From: Singulisphaera sp. GP187
GTDB taxonomy: Bacteria; Planctomycetota; Planctomycetia; Gemmatales; Gemmataceae
Length of the DNA: 39,419 nt
Assembly: GCA_945905925.1 (NCBI GenBank)
Contig: CAMDQN010000060.1
Location: 1 to 39,419, forward strand
Direction of reading: 5' to 3'
Part shown: positions 2,370 through 34,976 of the stretch, in pieces
Layout: each line of letters starts with the position of its first letter
Position numbering within the stretch: the stretch's first letter is position 1
Program-made: the position numbers and the translations under genes
The notes under the pieces: generated by a model
Database searches by the model: none
Told to the model about the DNA's origin: nothing
The model's input: the letters and a program-made list of their open reading frames with translations, nothing else

Positions 2370-2469
2370 GATTCTTGTAGGTCGGGTCGAGTTTTCGAGG
2401 CCCGACGTCTTCTGTTCACCTTCACGGAAGATGTCGGGCCTCGAAGACTCGACCCGACCTACAAGAATC
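2370..2469. repeat. intergenic palindrome (GTAGG family), 43-nt arms
   Basis: Arms 2370-2412 and 2427-2469 are inverted copies matching at 41 of 43 positions around a 14-base loop. It fills the gap between two convergent genes almost exactly, and its right end forms the last two bases of the stop codon of the minus-strand gene. In RNA from either strand it would fold into a very stable hairpin, so it may act as a bidirectional transcription stop. Its edge (TTCTTGTAGGTCGGGTCGAG) resembles the edges of the elements at 22861 and 26131, which points to a dispersed family. Confidence 0.9.
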
Positions 2470-3613
2470 ACTTCTTTTTGGTGTAGCTCAGCGCGAGGAT
2501 CGCGAACGCGGTCGCGAGGGCCGGTTCGTTCTCCAGGAACGCGCGGGTGCCGACCCAACTGCCGTTTGCCTTCTGCTTCCCCTTCAGTTCGTCGAACAGT
2601 TCCTGCCGCCAGTCGTGCTTGACCTTCTTCGCGTCCTCGAACATGTCTTCACCCAGCGCGTCCATCGCTTTCGCGAAGGTGTGGTAGTAGTAGAACAGAC
2701 CGCTGTCTTTTTCCTTCATGCCGGGGTTCGCGGAGACCGTGTAGTTCTTGCGGATCCAGTCCACCGCAGCCTTCACGCGATCGTCGTTCTTGCCGACGCC
2801 CGCGTACAGGAAGCTCTTGAGACCAGCGTAGGTCATGCCGCCTTCGCTGCGGAGACCGCCCTCCGCGGTGCGCTTCTCGCTCTTCGGGTCGTTCTGCGCG
2901 GACAGGTTGTACACGAACCCGCCCTTGTCGGCGTCGCTCGCTTTCGCCGCGAACGGCTGGTCGTTGGCCTCGCCTTTGAGGTTCTGGCTGCGGCTGATGT
3001 AGGTGAGCGCCCGCCGGATGGCCGGATCGTCTTTGCTCACGCCGGCCGCGAGCAGCGCCTCGACCATGAAGTGCGTGTTCGACATGTCCGGGCCGCCCTT
3101 GCCGCCCGGCTTGTCGTAACCGGCCCCGCCGAAGTTCGCGTCCTTGTCGGTCAGACCGTCGGCGTACTGCAGTGACTTCACGTACTTCGCGGCGCCATCG
3201 ATCACTTTGTCGTACTTCTTGTCGGCGTTCATCTCCTTGAACGCGACGATGGCGAGGCACGTCATGTAGTTGGACATGCCCTTCACGTACACGCCGCCGT
3301 CTTTCTGCACGTTCTTTTCGAGGTACTTGATCGCCTTCGCGATGACCGGGTTGTCGGCCGCGACGCCATTGCGCACGAGCGCGGACGCGATGAGTGCGGT
3401 CAGTCCCGGTTCGGCCTGCGGGCTGTCGAAGAAGTTGCCGTCGTCCTTCTGCGCGCTCTTGAGAAACCCGAGCGCCTTATCGACGAGTGTCTTCACTTCG
3501 TCGGCGCTGGGCGCGGCCGAGGCGAGCGGGGGGCTTGAGCCAACCGAGACGGCGAGTGCTGCGGGCGTGACGGCGGCGACCTTGAGCCATTGGCGACGGT
3601 TCAGCGAAGACAT
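2468..3613 (-). CDS. Tat-exported prenyltransferase/squalene-oxidase repeat protein
   Basis: This 381-residue protein starts at ATG 3613 behind an AGAGG ribosome binding site. Residues 5-10 (NRRQWLK) form a twin-arginine signal followed by an Ala/Val-rich hydrophobic stretch and a cleavage-type ASA site, so it should be exported folded. The mature part is made of alpha/alpha repeats with the Gln- and Gly-rich turn pattern of terpene cyclase-type repeats (for example LKSAQKDDGNFFDS, SRSQNLKGE, KQKANGSW). Such proteins are common in planctomycetes. The catalytic DXDD motif of squalene-hopene cyclases is not visible, so it is probably a non-catalytic or otherwise acting barrel. It is a single gene bounded by a palindrome at its 3' end. 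Confidence 0.8.
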   Translation of the reverse strand: MSSLNRRQWLKVAAVTPAALAVSVGSSPPLASAAPSADEVKTLVDKALGFLKSAQKDDGNFFDSPQAEPGLTALIASALVRNGVAADNPVIAKAIKYLEKNVQKDGGVYVKGMSNYMTCLAIVAFKEMNADKKYDKVIDGAAKYVKSLQYADGLTDKDANFGGAGYDKPGGKGGPDMSNTHFMVEALLAAGVSKDDPAIRRALTYISRSQNLKGEANDQPFAAKASDADKGGFVYNLSAQNDPKSEKRTAEGGLRSEGGMTYAGLKSFLYAGVGKNDDRVKAAVDWIRKNYTVSANPGMKEKDSGLFYYYHTFAKAMDALGEDMFEDAKKVKHDWRQELFDELKGKQKANGSWVGTRAFLENEPALATAFAILALSYTKKK

Positions 3614-20572: not shown

Positions 20573-20658
20573 GACGAGCTGGGGACGTAAGCCCCCCTGC
20601 TCTGTTTCACGTCACAAGTGCGCGAAGGTTTAACAGGGGCTTACGCCCCCCTCTCGCC
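20573..20658. repeat. intergenic palindrome (GGGGCTTACGCCCC family), 23-nt arms
   Basis: Arms 20573-20595 and 20636-20658 match at 19 of 23 positions. The right arm agrees at 21 of 23 positions with the right arm of the element inside the RND pump gene (24833-24855), so the two are copies of one family. It separates the kinase gene from the following gene on the same strand. Confidence 0.8.
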
Positions 20659-20718
20659 TCCATACACTGACCGAGCGAAGGAATTCTCTCATCACCACGA
20701 CGGGGCTGGCCTGCCCGC

Positions 20719-22860: not shown

Positions 22861-22976
22861 TTGTAGGGTGGGACAAGGCTTTGCGCAGGCCCACCCGTGC
22901 TGAACTGTAGTTACAAGGTCGGTCCTTGTTGGTTTCGCCGTGGTGGGCCTGCGCAAAGCCTTGTCCCACTCTACAA
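22861..22976. repeat. intergenic palindrome (GTAGGG-TGGG family), 35-nt arms
   Basis: Arms 22861-22895 and 22942-22976 match at 34 of 35 positions around a 46-base centre that holds a small nested hairpin (ACAAGG, TCGGT, CCTTGT). It lies between the RND pump gene and the export lipoprotein gene. Its outer TAG (minus strand, 22973-22971) is the stop codon of the pump gene. Confidence 0.92.
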
Positions 22977-25900
22977 AGCACTCTTCCCCACCGGGCGCCC
23001 GAACAGCGCGTACAGCGGCGGTAGCAAAAACAGGTTCAGCAGCGTCGATGTGATCAACCCGCCGAGGATGACCACCGCAAGCGGGTACTCGATCTCCTGC
23101 CCCGGCTTGTTCCCTGTGATCGCGAGCGGCAGCAGCGCCAAACCGGTCGCGAGCGCGGTCATGAGAATGGGCCCGAGGCGCTCTTCCGCGCCGCGCAAAA
23201 TCAAGCCGACACCGAACGGCACGCCCTCGTCCGTTTCGAGGTGCCGGAAGTGGCTCACGAGCATGATGCCGTTTCGCGCCGCGATGCCCAACACCGTGAC
23301 GAACCCGACCATCGACCCGAGCGACACCACACCGGTCGTAATGGTGACTGCGAACACACCGCCGACCAGCGCGAACGGGATCGTGAGCGCGACGAGCAGC
23401 GTTGGACGCCACGAGCCGAAATCGACTAAGAGCAGCAGCACGATCCCGATCAGCGCGAGGCCCGAGAGCGCGTAAAGACGTCGCGTCGATTCCTGGCGAG
23501 CTTGATATTCGCCAAGAAACTCGGGGTGGTACTCGCGTTCAAACGGAATCACTTTCACCTTCTCTTCGATCTCGCGCGCCACGGAGCCGAGGTCGCGACC
23601 TGACACGTTGCACGTCACATCAAGACGCCGGCTCGTGTTCTCGCGCTTCACCTCGTTCGGCGCGGACACAATCCGCACCTCGGCCACGTCCTTCAACCGT
23701 ACCTGCGTGCCGGCCTGAATGTCGATGGGCAGCATCTGAATCGCGTTCAGGTCGGTGCGCGTGTCGCGCGTGCCCCACACGACCACGTCGAATTTCTTCT
23801 GCCCGTCGTACACCTCGCCGACCTTCAACCCCTTCAGAAGTACCGTCGTGGCGCGGCGAACGTGACCAGGCGTGAGTCCGTAGCGGTCGAGCGCCTCCGG
23901 TCGCGGGCGAATCTCGACCTGCGCGACTAACACCTGTGGTTCGACCTTCAGGTTGGTCACGCCGGGGACCTCCTTCATCGCGGCTTCGACTTCCTTCGCC
24001 TTCGCGCGCAGCACCTCTTGATCCGGTCCATAGAGGCGCACGACGATGGCTCCGCTCGCACCGGTGAGAACTTCCTTGATGCGCTCGCGGAGGTATGTGA
24101 GCAGGTCGCGGTAGAGACCGGGGTACGCGTACACGACATCCGCGATGCGCTTCACGCTCGACTCGTACTCCACGTTCTCCGGGATGCTGATCCACAGTTC
24201 GGTGAAGTTCGGCCCGACCGGTTCGTCGGCCACTTCCGCCCGCCCGATGTGCGAGCCGAAGTTCCGAACGAGCTTCGTCCCCTTCTCGTCTTCGAGCGTG
24301 CGCAACTGCTTGCTCGCTTCTGCCGTGACTCGATGCATCGCCTCGACCGATGTGCCCGGCTTCTCGACGAAGTGCATCAGGAAATCGGTTTCCTGGAAGT
24401 TCGGCAGGAACTCTTGCCCGAGTCGCGTGGCAGCCCCCGCGGTAATCGCGAACGCAACGACAAGCGAGGCGAGGCACAGCCACGGTCGCGCAACGAACGA
24501 CGGCAGCACGACGCGATAGCCGCTCTTCAGCAATCGCGCGAGCGGCGGGTCGTGCTGAGCGATTTGCTTCCGCCCCGTGAGGAGCATGTACGACATCGCC
24601 GGCGTGACCGTGAGCGCGACGAGCAGCGACGCGCTGATCGCGACCACATACGCGAGCGCAAGCGGCCGGAAGAACGAGCCTGCCAACCCGTCGAGGAAGA
24701 ACACAGGCAGGAATACCAGCACGACGATCAGGCTCGCGTACACCACCGCCGACCGCACTTCGAGGGACGCTGCGAGGATGATCTGGAATGGCGAGCGGGT
24801 GGCGTTAGCCCCATGAGTTTCTGTACCCTCGAGGGGCTGACGCCCCCCGCTCGCCAGGCGCAAGCGGCGCGCGATGTTCTCCACGTCGATGATCGCATCA
24901 TCGACCACTTCACCGAGCGCGATCACCAGACCCGCGAGCACCATCGTGTTGATCGTCGCCCCGGAGTACGCGAACACGAGCAGCGCCGCGACCAGCGACA
25001 GCGGGATCGCGGTCAGGCTGATAACCGCCGTGCGCCAGTCGAACAGGAACACGATCAGGATGACCGCGACGAGGATGCAACCGATGACCAGCGCGTGCGT
25101 GAGGTTCTCTAGTGCGCGCTCGATGAACGTCGCCGGGCGAAAGATGGTCGGATCGATCTCGACATCCTTCAATCCGGGCTTCAGCGACTCGATCGCGGCT
25201 TCCACTTTGCGCGTGAGTTCGAGCGTGTTCGCTTCCGGCTGCTTCTCCACGATGAGCAGAATGCCGGGGCCGTCGTTGATAACCGCGTCACCGATCGCGG
25301 GCGGCGAACCGAACTGAACCGTCGCCACGTCCTTGAGGCGTTTCGACGTGCCGCCGCGATTATCCACCACGGTGCGGCCGAGGTCCGACGGGCCGTTCAC
25401 GAACGGCGTGTGCCGCACTGGGAGCCGCTGGTTCGGCGTGTCGAGGAACCCGCCCGCGTCCAGCGCGACCGCGTCGGTACTCGCGCGCGTCACCATCTCC
25501 ATCGTCACGTCGTTCGCGCGCAGCACGTCTGGGTCCACGATCACCTGATACTGTTTGTCGCGCTGGCCCCACACCGCGACGTTCGCCACGCCCGGCACCG
25601 CCATCAGCTTCGGACGGATCGTCCACATGACCACTTCGGTCAGATCGCGCTGCGAAAGCGTCTTCGACCAGATACCGATCTTCATCACGCGGCTTGTCGT
25701 GGATAGTGGTTGCAGAATGACCGGCGGCAGCGCGACCGTGGGGAGTTGTCGCGTGACCGCCGCGACGCGCTCCTGAACCATCTGCCGTACCTTCAGCGGA
25801 TCGGTTCCGTCTTCGAGAACGAGGACGACTTGCGACAGCCCGAACACGGACTTCGAGCGCACCACCTTCACGTTCGGCACGCCGTTGAGCGCGTTCTCGA

Positions 25901-26105
25901 TGGGCATCGTGACGAGCGATTCGACTTCCGTGGTCGAAAGCCCCGGCGCTTCGGTCTGAATCTCGACGAGCGGCGGCGCGAACTCCGGGAACACATCCAA
26001 CGGCGCGCGCCGGACCGACCGCGACCCGACAACGAGCAGCACCACGCACAGCGCCAGCACGACGACTCGCAGCTTGATCGAGTTGGAGATGAGCGCGGTG
26101 AGCAT
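22971..26105 (-). CDS. heavy-metal efflux RND permease (CusA/CzcA type)
   Basis: This 1044-residue inner-membrane proton antiporter starts at ATG 26105, after the palindrome at 26131. It has the usual RND order: TM1 ([21 protein letters not shown]), a first periplasmic domain, TM2-6, a large hydrophilic region, a second periplasmic domain and TM8-12 ([24 protein letters not shown] onward). The TM4 proton-relay acids are present in [14 protein letters not shown]. It should pump metal ions or other substrates through the adaptor and outer-membrane gene products encoded upstream. Residues 418-439, just after TM4, come from a palindromic repeat in frame; this loop is normally about 10 residues. 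The last codon and stop lie in the next palindrome. The metal specificity is not decided. Confidence 0.93.
24790..24855. repeat. palindrome inserted in frame within the RND gene
   Basis: Arms 24790-24812 and 24833-24855 match at 21 of 23 positions around a 20-base loop. The element is exactly 66 bases, 22 codons, and encodes residues 418-439 of the pump ([10 protein letters not shown]...TRSP). The right arm is nearly identical to that of the intergenic element at 20573-20658. It falls in the cytoplasmic loop after TM4, so folding of the pump should survive. Confidence 0.9.
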
Positions 26106-26130
26106 GGCAAAGGTGGTTTCGTGGCTTGGG

Positions 26131-26223
26131 TAGGGTGGGTCGAGCCGGCTTTGCGGCGAAGGCCTACCAGGACCGTCAGCGGGGGGGGTGGGCCTTCGCC
26201 GCAAGCCGGCTCGGTCCACCCTA
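26131..26223. repeat. intergenic palindrome (GTAGGG-TGGG family), 33/34-nt arms
   Basis: Arms 26131-26164 and 26191-26223 pair with two mismatches and one indel. It lies between the adaptor and pump genes. Its outer TAG (26223-26221, minus strand) serves as the stop codon of the adaptor gene. The edges share TAGGGTGGG with the elements at 2370 and 22861. Confidence 0.9.
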
Positions 26224-27474: not shown

Positions 27475-27490
27475 GTGGTGGTTCCGGGTA

Positions 27491-27592
27491 GGTGCCGCTT
27501 GCCGAGCGGCACTGCGATGCCCCACGTTCGAGCGACACGGACTTTCTGGACGCGATCCGCGTTGTGAAGCGTGCCGATCGGCAAGCGGCACC
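27491..27592. repeat. intergenic palindrome (GGTGCCGCTTGCC family), 22-nt arms
   Basis: Arms 27491-27512 and 27571-27592 match at 21 of 22 positions around a 58-base centre. It lies between the channel and adaptor genes of the efflux operon. The same arm sequence (GGTGCCGCTTGCCGAGCGGC) recurs in the element at 34407-34537, 7 kb away, so the two are copies of one family. Confidence 0.92.
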
Positions 27593-27603
27593 GACTTCCG
27601 AAA

Positions 27604-29144: not shown

Positions 29145-30578
29145 ATGGGCGAGGCCATCCAACAACTCGGCCGAGTCGCGCTCGCTCTAGAGGCAAGCCG
29201 GGCAACCGACGCGCAGTTGCTGGAGCGGTTCCTCGCCACTCACGACGAGACCACGTTTGAAGTCCTCGTTCGGCGGCACGGTCCGATGGTTCTGGGCGTG
29301 TGTCGCCGCGCCCTCCCGAATCCACAGGACGCGGAAGACGCGTTCCAGGCTACTTTCCTCGTGTTGGTGCGCAAAGCCGATTCCATCGTGCCGCGGGGAA
29401 TGGTCGGCAACTGGCTGTACGGGGTCGCGTACCAGACGGCACTCAAGGCGCGGGCGATGGCCGACAAACGGAGGGCGCGGGAGGGGCAAGTCATGAACAC
29501 ACCCGAACCCGCAGTGATGGAAAACGACGAGACGCTCTGGCGCGAATTGCGCCCGATCATCGACGAGGAACTGAGCCGCTTACCGGCGAAGTACCGGGTG
29601 CCGCTCGTGTTGTGCGACATCGAGGAGAAGTCGTACAAGGAAGCCGCCGAACAACTCGGTTGGCCCGAAGGGACAGTGGCGGGTCGGCGAGCGCGGGCAA
29701 TGCTGGCCGACCGACTCTCGCGCCGCGGCGTGGTACTCCCGGCCGTCGCGCTGACAGCGATTCTGACACATAACGCGGCGACGGCATCGGTGCCCGCCGC
29801 CCTGATGGTTCCAACAGTCAACGCCGCGACCCTCGTCGTGGCCGGTCAAGCGACAACCGGTGCGGTCTCCGCCAACGTCGTCGCTTTAACAGAAGGGGTC
29901 GTGAAAGCCATGATGCTGACCAAACTGAAGATCGCCACGGTTGTTCTGCTCGGAGCGTGCATTGTTGTTTCGGGCATGGGCTTTGGGTTCTCGCCCGCGA
30001 CTGCCGACGGGCAGGAAAAGAAAGCCCAACCGCCGGCGCAACCGCAGCCGAAGGACAAGAAGGTCGATCCGAAGGTTGTTCCCCCGGTCGCTCCGAACAA
30101 CGGCAACGACGAGAAAAACGGGCAGAACAACCAGAACGGCAACGACGAAAAGAACGGCAACAATAACCAAAACGGCAACGACGAGAAGAATGGGCAGAAC
30201 AACCAGAACGGTACCGACGAGAAGAATGGCAACAATAACCAGAATGGCAACGACGAGAAGAATGGGCAGAACAACCAGAACGGCAACGACGAACAGGGGG
30301 TTGTAAAGGCGATCAATCAGAACGCCAACACGATCACGGTCGTGGTGAACCACCAGGGCAAGCCAGTCGAGAAGGTGTTCGCACTCCCCAAGAATGTCCC
30401 GGTCCAAGTCGCCGGCAAGCCGGCCAAACTCGGTGACCTGAAGGCGGGGATGAAGGTGGGCGTGGCCCTCGACAAGGACAAGAAGAACGTCGTCGGCATC
30501 AAGCAGGTGAACGAGCCGAACGGCCCGAACAACAACGGGCAGAACGGCAACGGGCAGAAGAATCAGAAGAACGGCTAA
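29145..30578 (+). CDS. membrane-tethered ECF sigma factor with Asn-rich repeat and extracytoplasmic domain
   Basis: This 477-residue protein starts at ATG 29145 after GGGGAAG. Region 2 (about 23-90, with GMVGNWLYGVAYQTALKAR) and region 4 (about 125-185, with LSRLPAKYRVPLVLCDIEEKSYKEAAEQLGWPEGTVAGRRARA) are intact and typical of planctomycete ECF factors. A hydrophobic segment at about 261-283 (KIATVVLLGACIVVSGMGFGF) should span the membrane. Outside it a Pro/Lys linker leads to five 12-residue repeats (319-378, GNDEKNGQNNQN type) plus a half copy. A C-terminal domain (about 385-455, VVKAINQNANTITVVVNHQGKPVEKVF) resembles small periplasmic DUF5666-like beta domains. The sigma factor thus carries its own sensor or tether, so no separate anti-sigma gene lies beside it. 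Confidence 0.92.
   Translation: MGEAIQQLGRVALALEASRATDAQLLERFLATHDETTFEVLVRRHGPMVLGVCRRALPNPQDAEDAFQATFLVLVRKADSIVPRGMVGNWLYGVAYQTALKARAMADKRRAREGQVMNTPEPAVMENDETLWRELRPIIDEELSRLPAKYRVPLVLCDIEEKSYKEAAEQLGWPEGTVAGRRARAMLADRLSRRGVVLPAVALTAILTHNAATASVPAALMVPTVNAATLVVAGQATTGAVSANVVALTEGVVKAMMLTKLKIATVVLLGACIVVSGMGFGFSPATADGQEKKAQPPAQPQPKDKKVDPKVVPPVAPNNGNDEKNGQNNQNGNDEKNGNNNQNGNDEKNGQNNQNGTDEKNGNNNQNGNDEKNGQNNQNGNDEQGVVKAINQNANTITVVVNHQGKPVEKVFALPKNVPVQVAGKPAKLGDLKAGMKVGVALDKDKKNVVGIKQVNEPNGPNNNGQNGNGQKNQKNG
30099..30296 (+). repeat. 36-bp tandem repeat (12-aa units) within the sigma factor gene
   Basis: Five consecutive 36-base units (30099-30134, 30135-30170, 30171-30206, 30207-30242, 30243-30278) are followed by a half unit (30279-30296). 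The amino-acid unit is NGNDEKNG(Q/N)NNQ, and the Q/N position alternates from unit to unit, giving a 72-base higher-order period. Nucleotide differences are few, which implies recent expansion by slippage or unequal exchange. Confidence 0.93.
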
Positions 30579-34398: not shown

Positions 34399-34406
34399 AG
34401 AACCTC

Positions 34407-34537
34407 CGTAGTAGGTGCCGCTTGCCGAGCGGCACGGCTTCGCGCGTCACCACGCATTGCGCGAAAGACAGCCCCGACGATTCGTAAGGCAACATGATGC
34501 GCGAAGCCGTGCCGCTCGGCAAGCGGCACCTACTACG
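34407..34537. repeat. intergenic palindrome (GGTGCCGCTTGCC family), perfect 39-nt arms
   Basis: Arms 34407-34445 and 34499-34537 are perfect inverted copies, 39 of 39, around a 53-base centre. It fills the space between the truncated desaturase frame and the secreted glycosidase-like gene: one edge supplies the stop codon TAG at 34535-34533 for the former, the other ends at the GGAGG site of the latter. Its inner arm sequence is also found in the element at 27491-27592. Confidence 0.95.
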
Positions 34538-34976
34538 AACCCCCAGCTACCGGGTCGGGTGCGGCGCTGCCCGCGAGCAGTTCCGCCGGCGGCACCTTCA
34601 CGTCCCACACCAATCCCACCAGCCGCAGAAGTCGGATGAACACGTAGCACATGTCGAACTCGTACCAGGCGAACCCGTGCCGAGCCGAGTACGGGGCGCG
34701 GTGATGATTGTTGTGCCACCCGTCGCCCATTGTCAGATAGCCCAGCACCATGTTGTTCCGGCTGCCCTCCCCGGTGGCGAACCGCTGTCGCCCGAACAGG
34801 TGGCCGATTGAGTTCACCGCGAACGTGACCCGGAACGTCCGCACGACGCTCAGGCAGAACCCGTAGATCAGCCCGTTCCACACCCGGCAGAGGTCAAGAA
34901 ATCGACCGCGTTCCGCGGCGAGAGGAACTTTAGTAATCTGCTGTATTTGGCTCGCCATCTTGCGTCTGGCAATCAC
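34533..34976 (-). pseudogene. truncated fatty-acid desaturase (C-terminal third only)
   Basis: This 147-codon frame carries the end of an acyl-CoA/lipid delta-9-type desaturase: VNSIGHLFGRQRF, then the third histidine box GDGWHNNHH followed by RAPYSARHGFAWYEFD. Functional enzymes are about 300 residues and have two more His boxes (HxxxxH and HxxHH) in the part missing here. The frame starts at GTG 34976, overlapping the glmS stop by three bases (GTGA), so it might still be translated by coupling. Since iron-binding requires all three boxes, it should be inactive. The 5' part is not found upstream in the window, where glmS lies. It probably decayed after a deletion that brought it next to glmS. 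Confidence 0.75.

Follow-up and report, generated by a model that had tools for sequence, protein, structure and literature searches.

The loop that joins TM4 to TM5 in an RND efflux pump has probably captured an inverted pair of REP units, which was kept because the reading frame stayed intact and the loop is tolerant. The pump gene lies in a stretch of 39,419 nt from Singulisphaera sp. GP187, hereafter the window. The original prediction of a tolerated in-frame capture of a mobile intergenic palindrome is borne out by the size of the repeat family, the frame, the derived loop and other in-frame copies in the same genome. According to the mechanism that we propose, inverted units of a family abundant in the lineage would enter the TM4-TM5 loop, presumably moved by a RAYT-like Y1 enzyme, and the insert would be retained since the frame is unbroken and the loop accepts extra disordered sequence. 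The resulting loop peptide is probably neutral or nearly so, and the strong hairpin in the mRNA is most likely a by-product. The pump gene and its palindrome are laid out as follows.

22971-26219, minus strand: RND efflux pump ORF (ACR_tran, E 1.6e-226)
24790-24855, minus strand: in-frame REP pair (REPIN-like) of the pump gene, encoding about residues 455-477 of P0001
24833-24855, minus strand: first REP unit on the coding strand, GGCGAGCGGGGGGCGTCAGCCCC, an exact pattern match
24813-24832, minus strand: spacer of 20 nt separating both REP units, by direct sequence reading
24790-24812, plus strand: second REP unit, GGCGAGCGGGTGGCGTTAGCCCC, which differs from the consensus by a T in the stem and a T in the loop

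The palindrome is made of two outward-facing copies of a ~ 28-nt repeat, GGCGAGCGGGGGGCGTMAGCCCCCTGWT, with the 20-nt spacer between them, and appears at 24789-24856 as an inverted repeat with arms of 29 nt, 86% complementary, at a spacing of 10 nt. Folded as RNA, the 68 nt of the coding strand reach -51.6 kcal/mol (z -8.9, equalled by none of 200 shuffles) and the identical hairpin forms inside a 171-nt context (z -4.8), in agreement with the strong mRNA hairpin that had been anticipated. The 66 nt of the element match two other full-length copies in the genome at 84% and 77%. An Rfam search of positions 24500-25200 gave no match up to E 1.

The repeat family was searched with the exact pattern GGCGAGCGGGNGGCN{3,6}GCC, the reversed pattern serving as control. 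In the 6.47-Mb GP187 genome 53+53 exact matches were found vs 1+1 for the reversed pattern, which confirms that the palindrome is real. A pattern match is present in 18 of the 19 genomes of the genus (GP187 included) with a very uneven spread: 107+114 matches in G015 and 46+51 in G010, a single one in G009, several genomes at control level and no match in the whole of G011. The consensus GGCGAGCGGGGGGCGTMAGCCCCCTGWT, drawn from 100 exact units, has a GGGGGC/GCCCCC stem, conserved ends GGCGAGCG and TGWT, and GTMA in the hairpin loop; A or T precedes the unit in 85% of these 100, with little conservation farther out. The head of the pump repeat is GGCGAGCG. Of the 86 GP187 loci that were read, 60 contain a single unit within one mismatch, and the other 26 contain two inverted units, of which six are 32-nt palindromes and 20 are pairs of 65-116 nt that face outward. 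The family thus shares with REPs and REPINs a palindromic unit of 20-40 nt in many genome copies, often paired and inverted (26/86 loci). Two further members lie in the window.

20573-20660, no strand assigned: diverged REP pair between two ORFs; the right unit, 20638-20658, departs from the pattern by at most one mismatch
3521-3541, plus strand: partial REP unit, a pattern match with the left stem lost, within the Tat-like signal region at the N-terminus of the ORF 2468-3613 (minus strand)

The first of these, of the same family as the pump palindrome, is the related intergenic copy that had been placed at 20573.

The minus-strand ORF that holds the palindrome in frame is an ACR_tran/RND protein, as first proposed. 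Its top NCBIfam model is of the CusA/CzcA type, under that model's cut-off, and its top PDB matches are ZneA and CusA. The alignments of most homologues begin near residue 38, so that the start is more likely the ATG at 26105 than the 26219 end of the ORF. In an AlphaFold2 model (mean pLDDT 79; 20 sequences) residues 459-473 fall under pLDDT 50 and link two long helices, 425-457 and 477-507, which from the known topology of RND pumps we take to be TM4 and TM5 with a cytoplasmic loop between them; the predicted position after TM4 is consistent with this model. Loop length was taken as the distance between the conserved DDAIIDVEN and the conserved motif that follows, in 110 rows (GP187, 29 others and 80 more, a few near-identical rows included). 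The loop counts 24 residues in 95/110 rows, GP187's own row being part of the total, so that the claim of a usually short loop holds, and 36 residues in the GP187 pump, that is 12 more than the usual 24 and 13 more than the 23 of three genus-mates. A loop of 36 residues, which with unrelated codons would have spoken for an ancestral length, was found in none of the 108 other measurable rows (row L276 did not fit the motif). The long loop is a derived state. The statement that exactly 22 residues had been added stands for the DNA, 66 nt making 22 codons, but not for the protein, whose net gain is 12-13 residues (36-39 nt, less than the 66 nt of the element). No junction or target-site duplication is readable in the comparison with the nearest relatives, because their loops are too diverged. 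The outer ends of the element, GGCGAGCGGG and CGCTCGCC, resemble codons of the short-loop gene of G002, GGCGAGTGGG and CGTTCGCC, and the latter may be either pre-existing codons or a decayed remnant.

Palindromes occupy the same loop in other pumps as well. The G010 homologue has a single unit of the GP187 pump family in its loop (GGGGGCTGGTGCCCCCCGCTCGCC), ending on the same RSPF codons as the GP187 pair, and RSP-type codons are found at that position in several short-loop relatives; G018, the sister of G010, has a normal loop of 24 residues. In G003 the 40-residue loop is a different palindrome (z -4.4) with 38 matches in G003, itself counted, and no match in GP187 at E 0.01. In a Verrucomicrobia MAG (L240) a CCCTCTCCC/GGGAGAGGG palindrome (z -10.9) makes up the 90-residue loop, and the sister of L240, L246, has a loop of 20 residues. 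The 43-residue loop of G015 has just GCCCCCCGCTCGCC at its right end in common with the GP187 element and folds no better than shuffles. In a pump tree built with the loop cut out, GP187 and G015, both with long loops, are joined with modest support (83/65) and group with the short-loop G009 at 100/99, and G010 pairs with the short-loop G018 (99/96). Because the palindrome-bearing pumps of GP187, G010, G003 and L240 stand apart in this tree, at least four separate captures would be the simplest reading, and GP187 and G015 may share one of them.

Other in-frame copies, which the original prediction had proposed to look for in the same genome, are numerous. At 22/86 loci the frame is open and codon use looks like that of coding sequence on either flank (score over 0.05). 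Under a stricter test, which asked for a codon score over 0.22 within the 180 nt flanking either side, 14 loci are in frame, none is out of frame and one lies between opposite strands; of the rest, 38 have a single coding flank, 32 have none and one is at an edge. If insertion were indifferent to frame, about a third of the in-frame and out-of-frame loci together would be expected in frame. At least one Pfam family is matched by 19 of the 20 other host proteins, L082 being without a hit. By Pfam the hosts include a class I tRNA synthetase (L093), presumably of the isoleucyl type, UvrA and a squalene-hopene cyclase (both L088), Hsp70 (L098), an FGGY kinase (L085), a thiolase (L128), two 2-oxoacid dehydrogenase acyltransferases (L090, L106) and a sigma-54 activator with the repeat between its receiver and AAA domains (L076). 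Such in-frame copies in several unrelated conserved genes are the behaviour of RPEs, and the recurring peptides coded by the repeat, RAGGVSP among them, represent several frames of one unit. The GGLRPPLA frame of the unit, or a variant of it, was also read by eye directly after the hydrophobic part of apparent Sec/Tat signal peptides, at window positions 3521-3541, at L061, L077, L101, L103, L109 and L123, and in G002 at L285, L298 and L302; it is placed there as if serving as the end of the signal peptide.

Relatives from G015, G002 or G009 turned up among the fetched loci for 17 of 18 GP187 query pieces, L090 being the exception. A recognisable unit is common to GP187 and G015 at L075 (partly), L076, L085, L086, L093, L098, L106 and L113, and to GP187 and G002 at L085, L124 and L130. 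No unit was seen in the G015 orthologue at L130, in the G002 orthologues at L086, L087, L106, L128 and both L133 sites, nor, judged by peptide, in any of the ten G009 relatives shown. The net length vs G009 is +7 residues at L093 and L124, +4 at L070 and L087, +2 at L130, +1 at L088 (UvrA) and L113, 0 at L076 and -1 at L128, and vs G002 it is +4 to +6 at L086, L087 and L133:2300. One unit encodes 8-9 residues, more than any of the gains against G009; hence host loop sequence would usually have been lost, or was already variable, at the repeat sites. With a pump gain below 66 nt and gains of -1 to +7 residues in the other genes, below one unit, the units may not have gone in cleanly, and host sequence may have been lost.

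The capture of a REP pair has to be weighed against the view that the loop was long beforehand and that codon drift produced its likeness to the repeat. The resemblance of the element's outer ends to codons in the short-loop G002 would suit such drift, but the 36 residues recur in none of the other measured rows and the 66 nt match full-length copies elsewhere in the genome, which makes this view extremely improbable. It is very unlikely that the hairpin has been kept for a function, slowing translation between two membrane helices or protecting the mRNA. Its great stability and its site, where pausing could matter, would fit such a role, as would the codons of the repeats shared between species: same-residue codons changed at 4/64 positions in these repeats vs 202/618 in the flanks (Fisher p 2e-6). 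However, a constraint at the DNA level was set aside as an explanation of this difference because the sampling is biased, the GP187 copies having been chosen by near-exact match and their partners by visible sharing; when repeats were chosen in G002 instead, some proved changed or decayed in GP187 or G015 (L284 and L296 sites). Moreover, two single units from other genes hardly exceed shuffles in folding stability (z -1.3 and -1.1) and most relatives do without the hairpin.

Recurrent capture in the pump loop might also reflect a preference of the insertion machinery for certain sites, for instance those with CGCTCGCC-like sequence, beyond the tolerance of the loop. The G010 unit and the GP187 pair do end on the same RSPF codons, and the RSP-type codons of short-loop relatives could be such a target. 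On the other hand, palindromes of other families sit in the same loop of G003 and L240, which tolerance explains and a common target does not, and before the unit there is just a weak preference for A/T; site preference is therefore unlikely. Capture in a tolerant loop, with the frame intact, accounts for these observations best as a whole.

Linkers besides the pump loop also hold different palindromes in different species, and three such cases are known, those at L281 and L300 coming from a comparison of 10 G002 pieces; the cases were picked by eye and then folded, with no systematic count. The L281 site is occupied by a REP pair in G002, by a palindrome of CCTACCCCCC type in GP187 and by one of CCCTCTCCC type in G015, and no hairpin beyond shuffles was found in G009. 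The L300 site is occupied by a REP pair in G002 and by other palindromes in GP187 and G009. In the squalene-hopene cyclase the REP pair is that of GP187, and the G002 gene carries a CCCTCTCCC-type hairpin (z -3.4). The CCCTCTCCC sequences also form a repeat family, which gave matches in 17/19 genomes and none for the control. At L294, in a G002 protein that by its sequence we take to be tryptophan synthase alpha-like, one unit was observed where the loop of GP187, G015 and G009 is 8 residues shorter. It is possible, though we hold it with some reserve, that permissive linkers of conserved proteins are standing landing pads where unrelated mobile palindromes come and go, orthologues differing mainly by the palindrome in the loop. 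If so, palindromes would be a major origin of new sequence for linkers and signal peptides in this planctomycete group.

The enzyme was looked for among 80 Y1 matches in 19 genomes, with flanks of 1.5-2 kb trimmed at contig ends. An exact unit of the pump-loop family lies within these flanks at none of the 80. Allowing one mismatch gives a single match, without a stem (L350), and allowing two gives 4 matches around 32 of the Y1 matches and 10 around the other 48, most without a stem. Two exceptions stand out: a near-family pair about 1.45 kb from a Y1 gene that is itself flanked by other repeats (L330, in G008), and a sister repeat on both sides of a Y1 gene (L361, in G018), with an own-family stem lacking the GGC head some 250 nt beyond it. 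The L361 protein resembles a Y1 subfamily at 42-50% identity (L351, L340, L342, L346, L370 and L364), and 6/7 members, all except L364, were read by eye as lying between inverted GTMA-loop units. Several of these units have the head GGCGAGCG or GGCGAACG, as the pump-loop family does, and GGCGARCG-type heads flank the genes in L361, L346 and L351. The flanking units are GGCGAACGGCCGGCGTAAGCCGGCCGGTGAGA in L361, GGCGAGCGGCGCGGCGTCAGCCCGCCGGTG in L346 (G008) and GCGAGCGGCGCGGCGTAAGCCCGCCGGT in L340 (G010); similar units, with GTCA or GTAA as their loop, flank the genes of L351, L342 and L370 on either side. Hence the pump-loop repeat and the repeats flanking this subfamily follow a common plan of head and GTMA loop, and an L361-type enzyme may have moved the pump-loop repeat. 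The three Y1 genes of GP187, an assembly of 251 contigs, gave no match to the L361 subfamily at E 1e-5. Two of its Y1 matches, on contigs C29 and C99 (L136, L137; that on C99 just below the Pfam cut-off), lie each between other palindromes, GTTAGCCGCAAGCCG... and GCCCCTGCGGGTC..., and look like RAYTs with repeat families of their own. The repeats around L361, L346, L340, L351, L342 and L370 keep the GTMA loop and vary in their stems by genome, which makes this subfamily a series for studying the joint divergence of REPs and their enzymes. At L330 (1664-1912) three tandem 83-nt units with an internal palindrome were also seen, with inverted copies across the Y1 gene.

Palindromes inside genes are already known as REPs and RPEs. 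PMC3733652 describes REPs within genes of many species, uvrA and tRNA synthetases among the hosts, dimers encoding 20-30 residues, and different REPs at about the same recB site in two Xanthomonas species. The present units resemble these intragenic GTAG/CGTC REPs as small palindromes, single or dimeric, in many unrelated genes; they differ in that the unpaired GTAG or CGTC end tag of the super-families described there is absent from the unit consensus, and in that unrelated palindrome families here fill one linker. RPE-4 and RPE-6 are classed as CGTC REPs in the same source. As reviewed in PMC2229807, Rickettsia palindromic elements of 105-146 bp are tolerated in frame in conserved proteins, and Gmk with an insert retains activity with altered affinity. 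The likeness to RPEs is one of behaviour, and the units here are shorter, ~ 28 nt, with pairs of 65-116 nt. With REPINs, the paired REPs treated in PMC3116915 and PMC8049555, the family has in common two inverted units with a spacer, in many copies, and related designs flank RAYT-like genes in the genus, but a RAYT beside exact own-family units was found at 0/80 Y1 matches. The filling of one linker by unrelated palindromes is less expected and goes beyond what the available parts of PMC3733652 and PMC2229807 contain; a limited search of the open-licence literature found no report of it. A single oddity thereby becomes a countable process that turns mobile non-coding hairpins into protein. Furthermore, for a given conserved protein the genus provides loops with and without a palindrome (class I tRNA synthetase, UvrA and Hsp70 are examples), which allows the tolerance, cost and turnover of captured palindromes to be measured.

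Other repeats were observed in the window. The stop codon of the pump, TAG, lies inside another repeat, being supplied by the arm TTGTAGGGTGGG... of a GTAG-type palindrome; similar palindromes are present at L135 (136-222) and L136 (3857-3984), and according to PMC3733652 GTAG REPs often supply the stop codon TAG.

22861-22895 and 22942-22976: arms of the GTAG-type palindrome at the 3' end of the pump gene
29145-30578, plus strand: ORF containing the tandem repeat at 30096-30298

A second palindromic family, GTAGGTGCCGCTTGCCGAGCGGCAC, occurs at 27476-27601 and 34405-34545 in several copies and orientations. The tandem repeat at 30096-30298 has an 18/36-nt register and is rich in AAC, GGC, GAC and GAG (AACGGCAACGACGAG).
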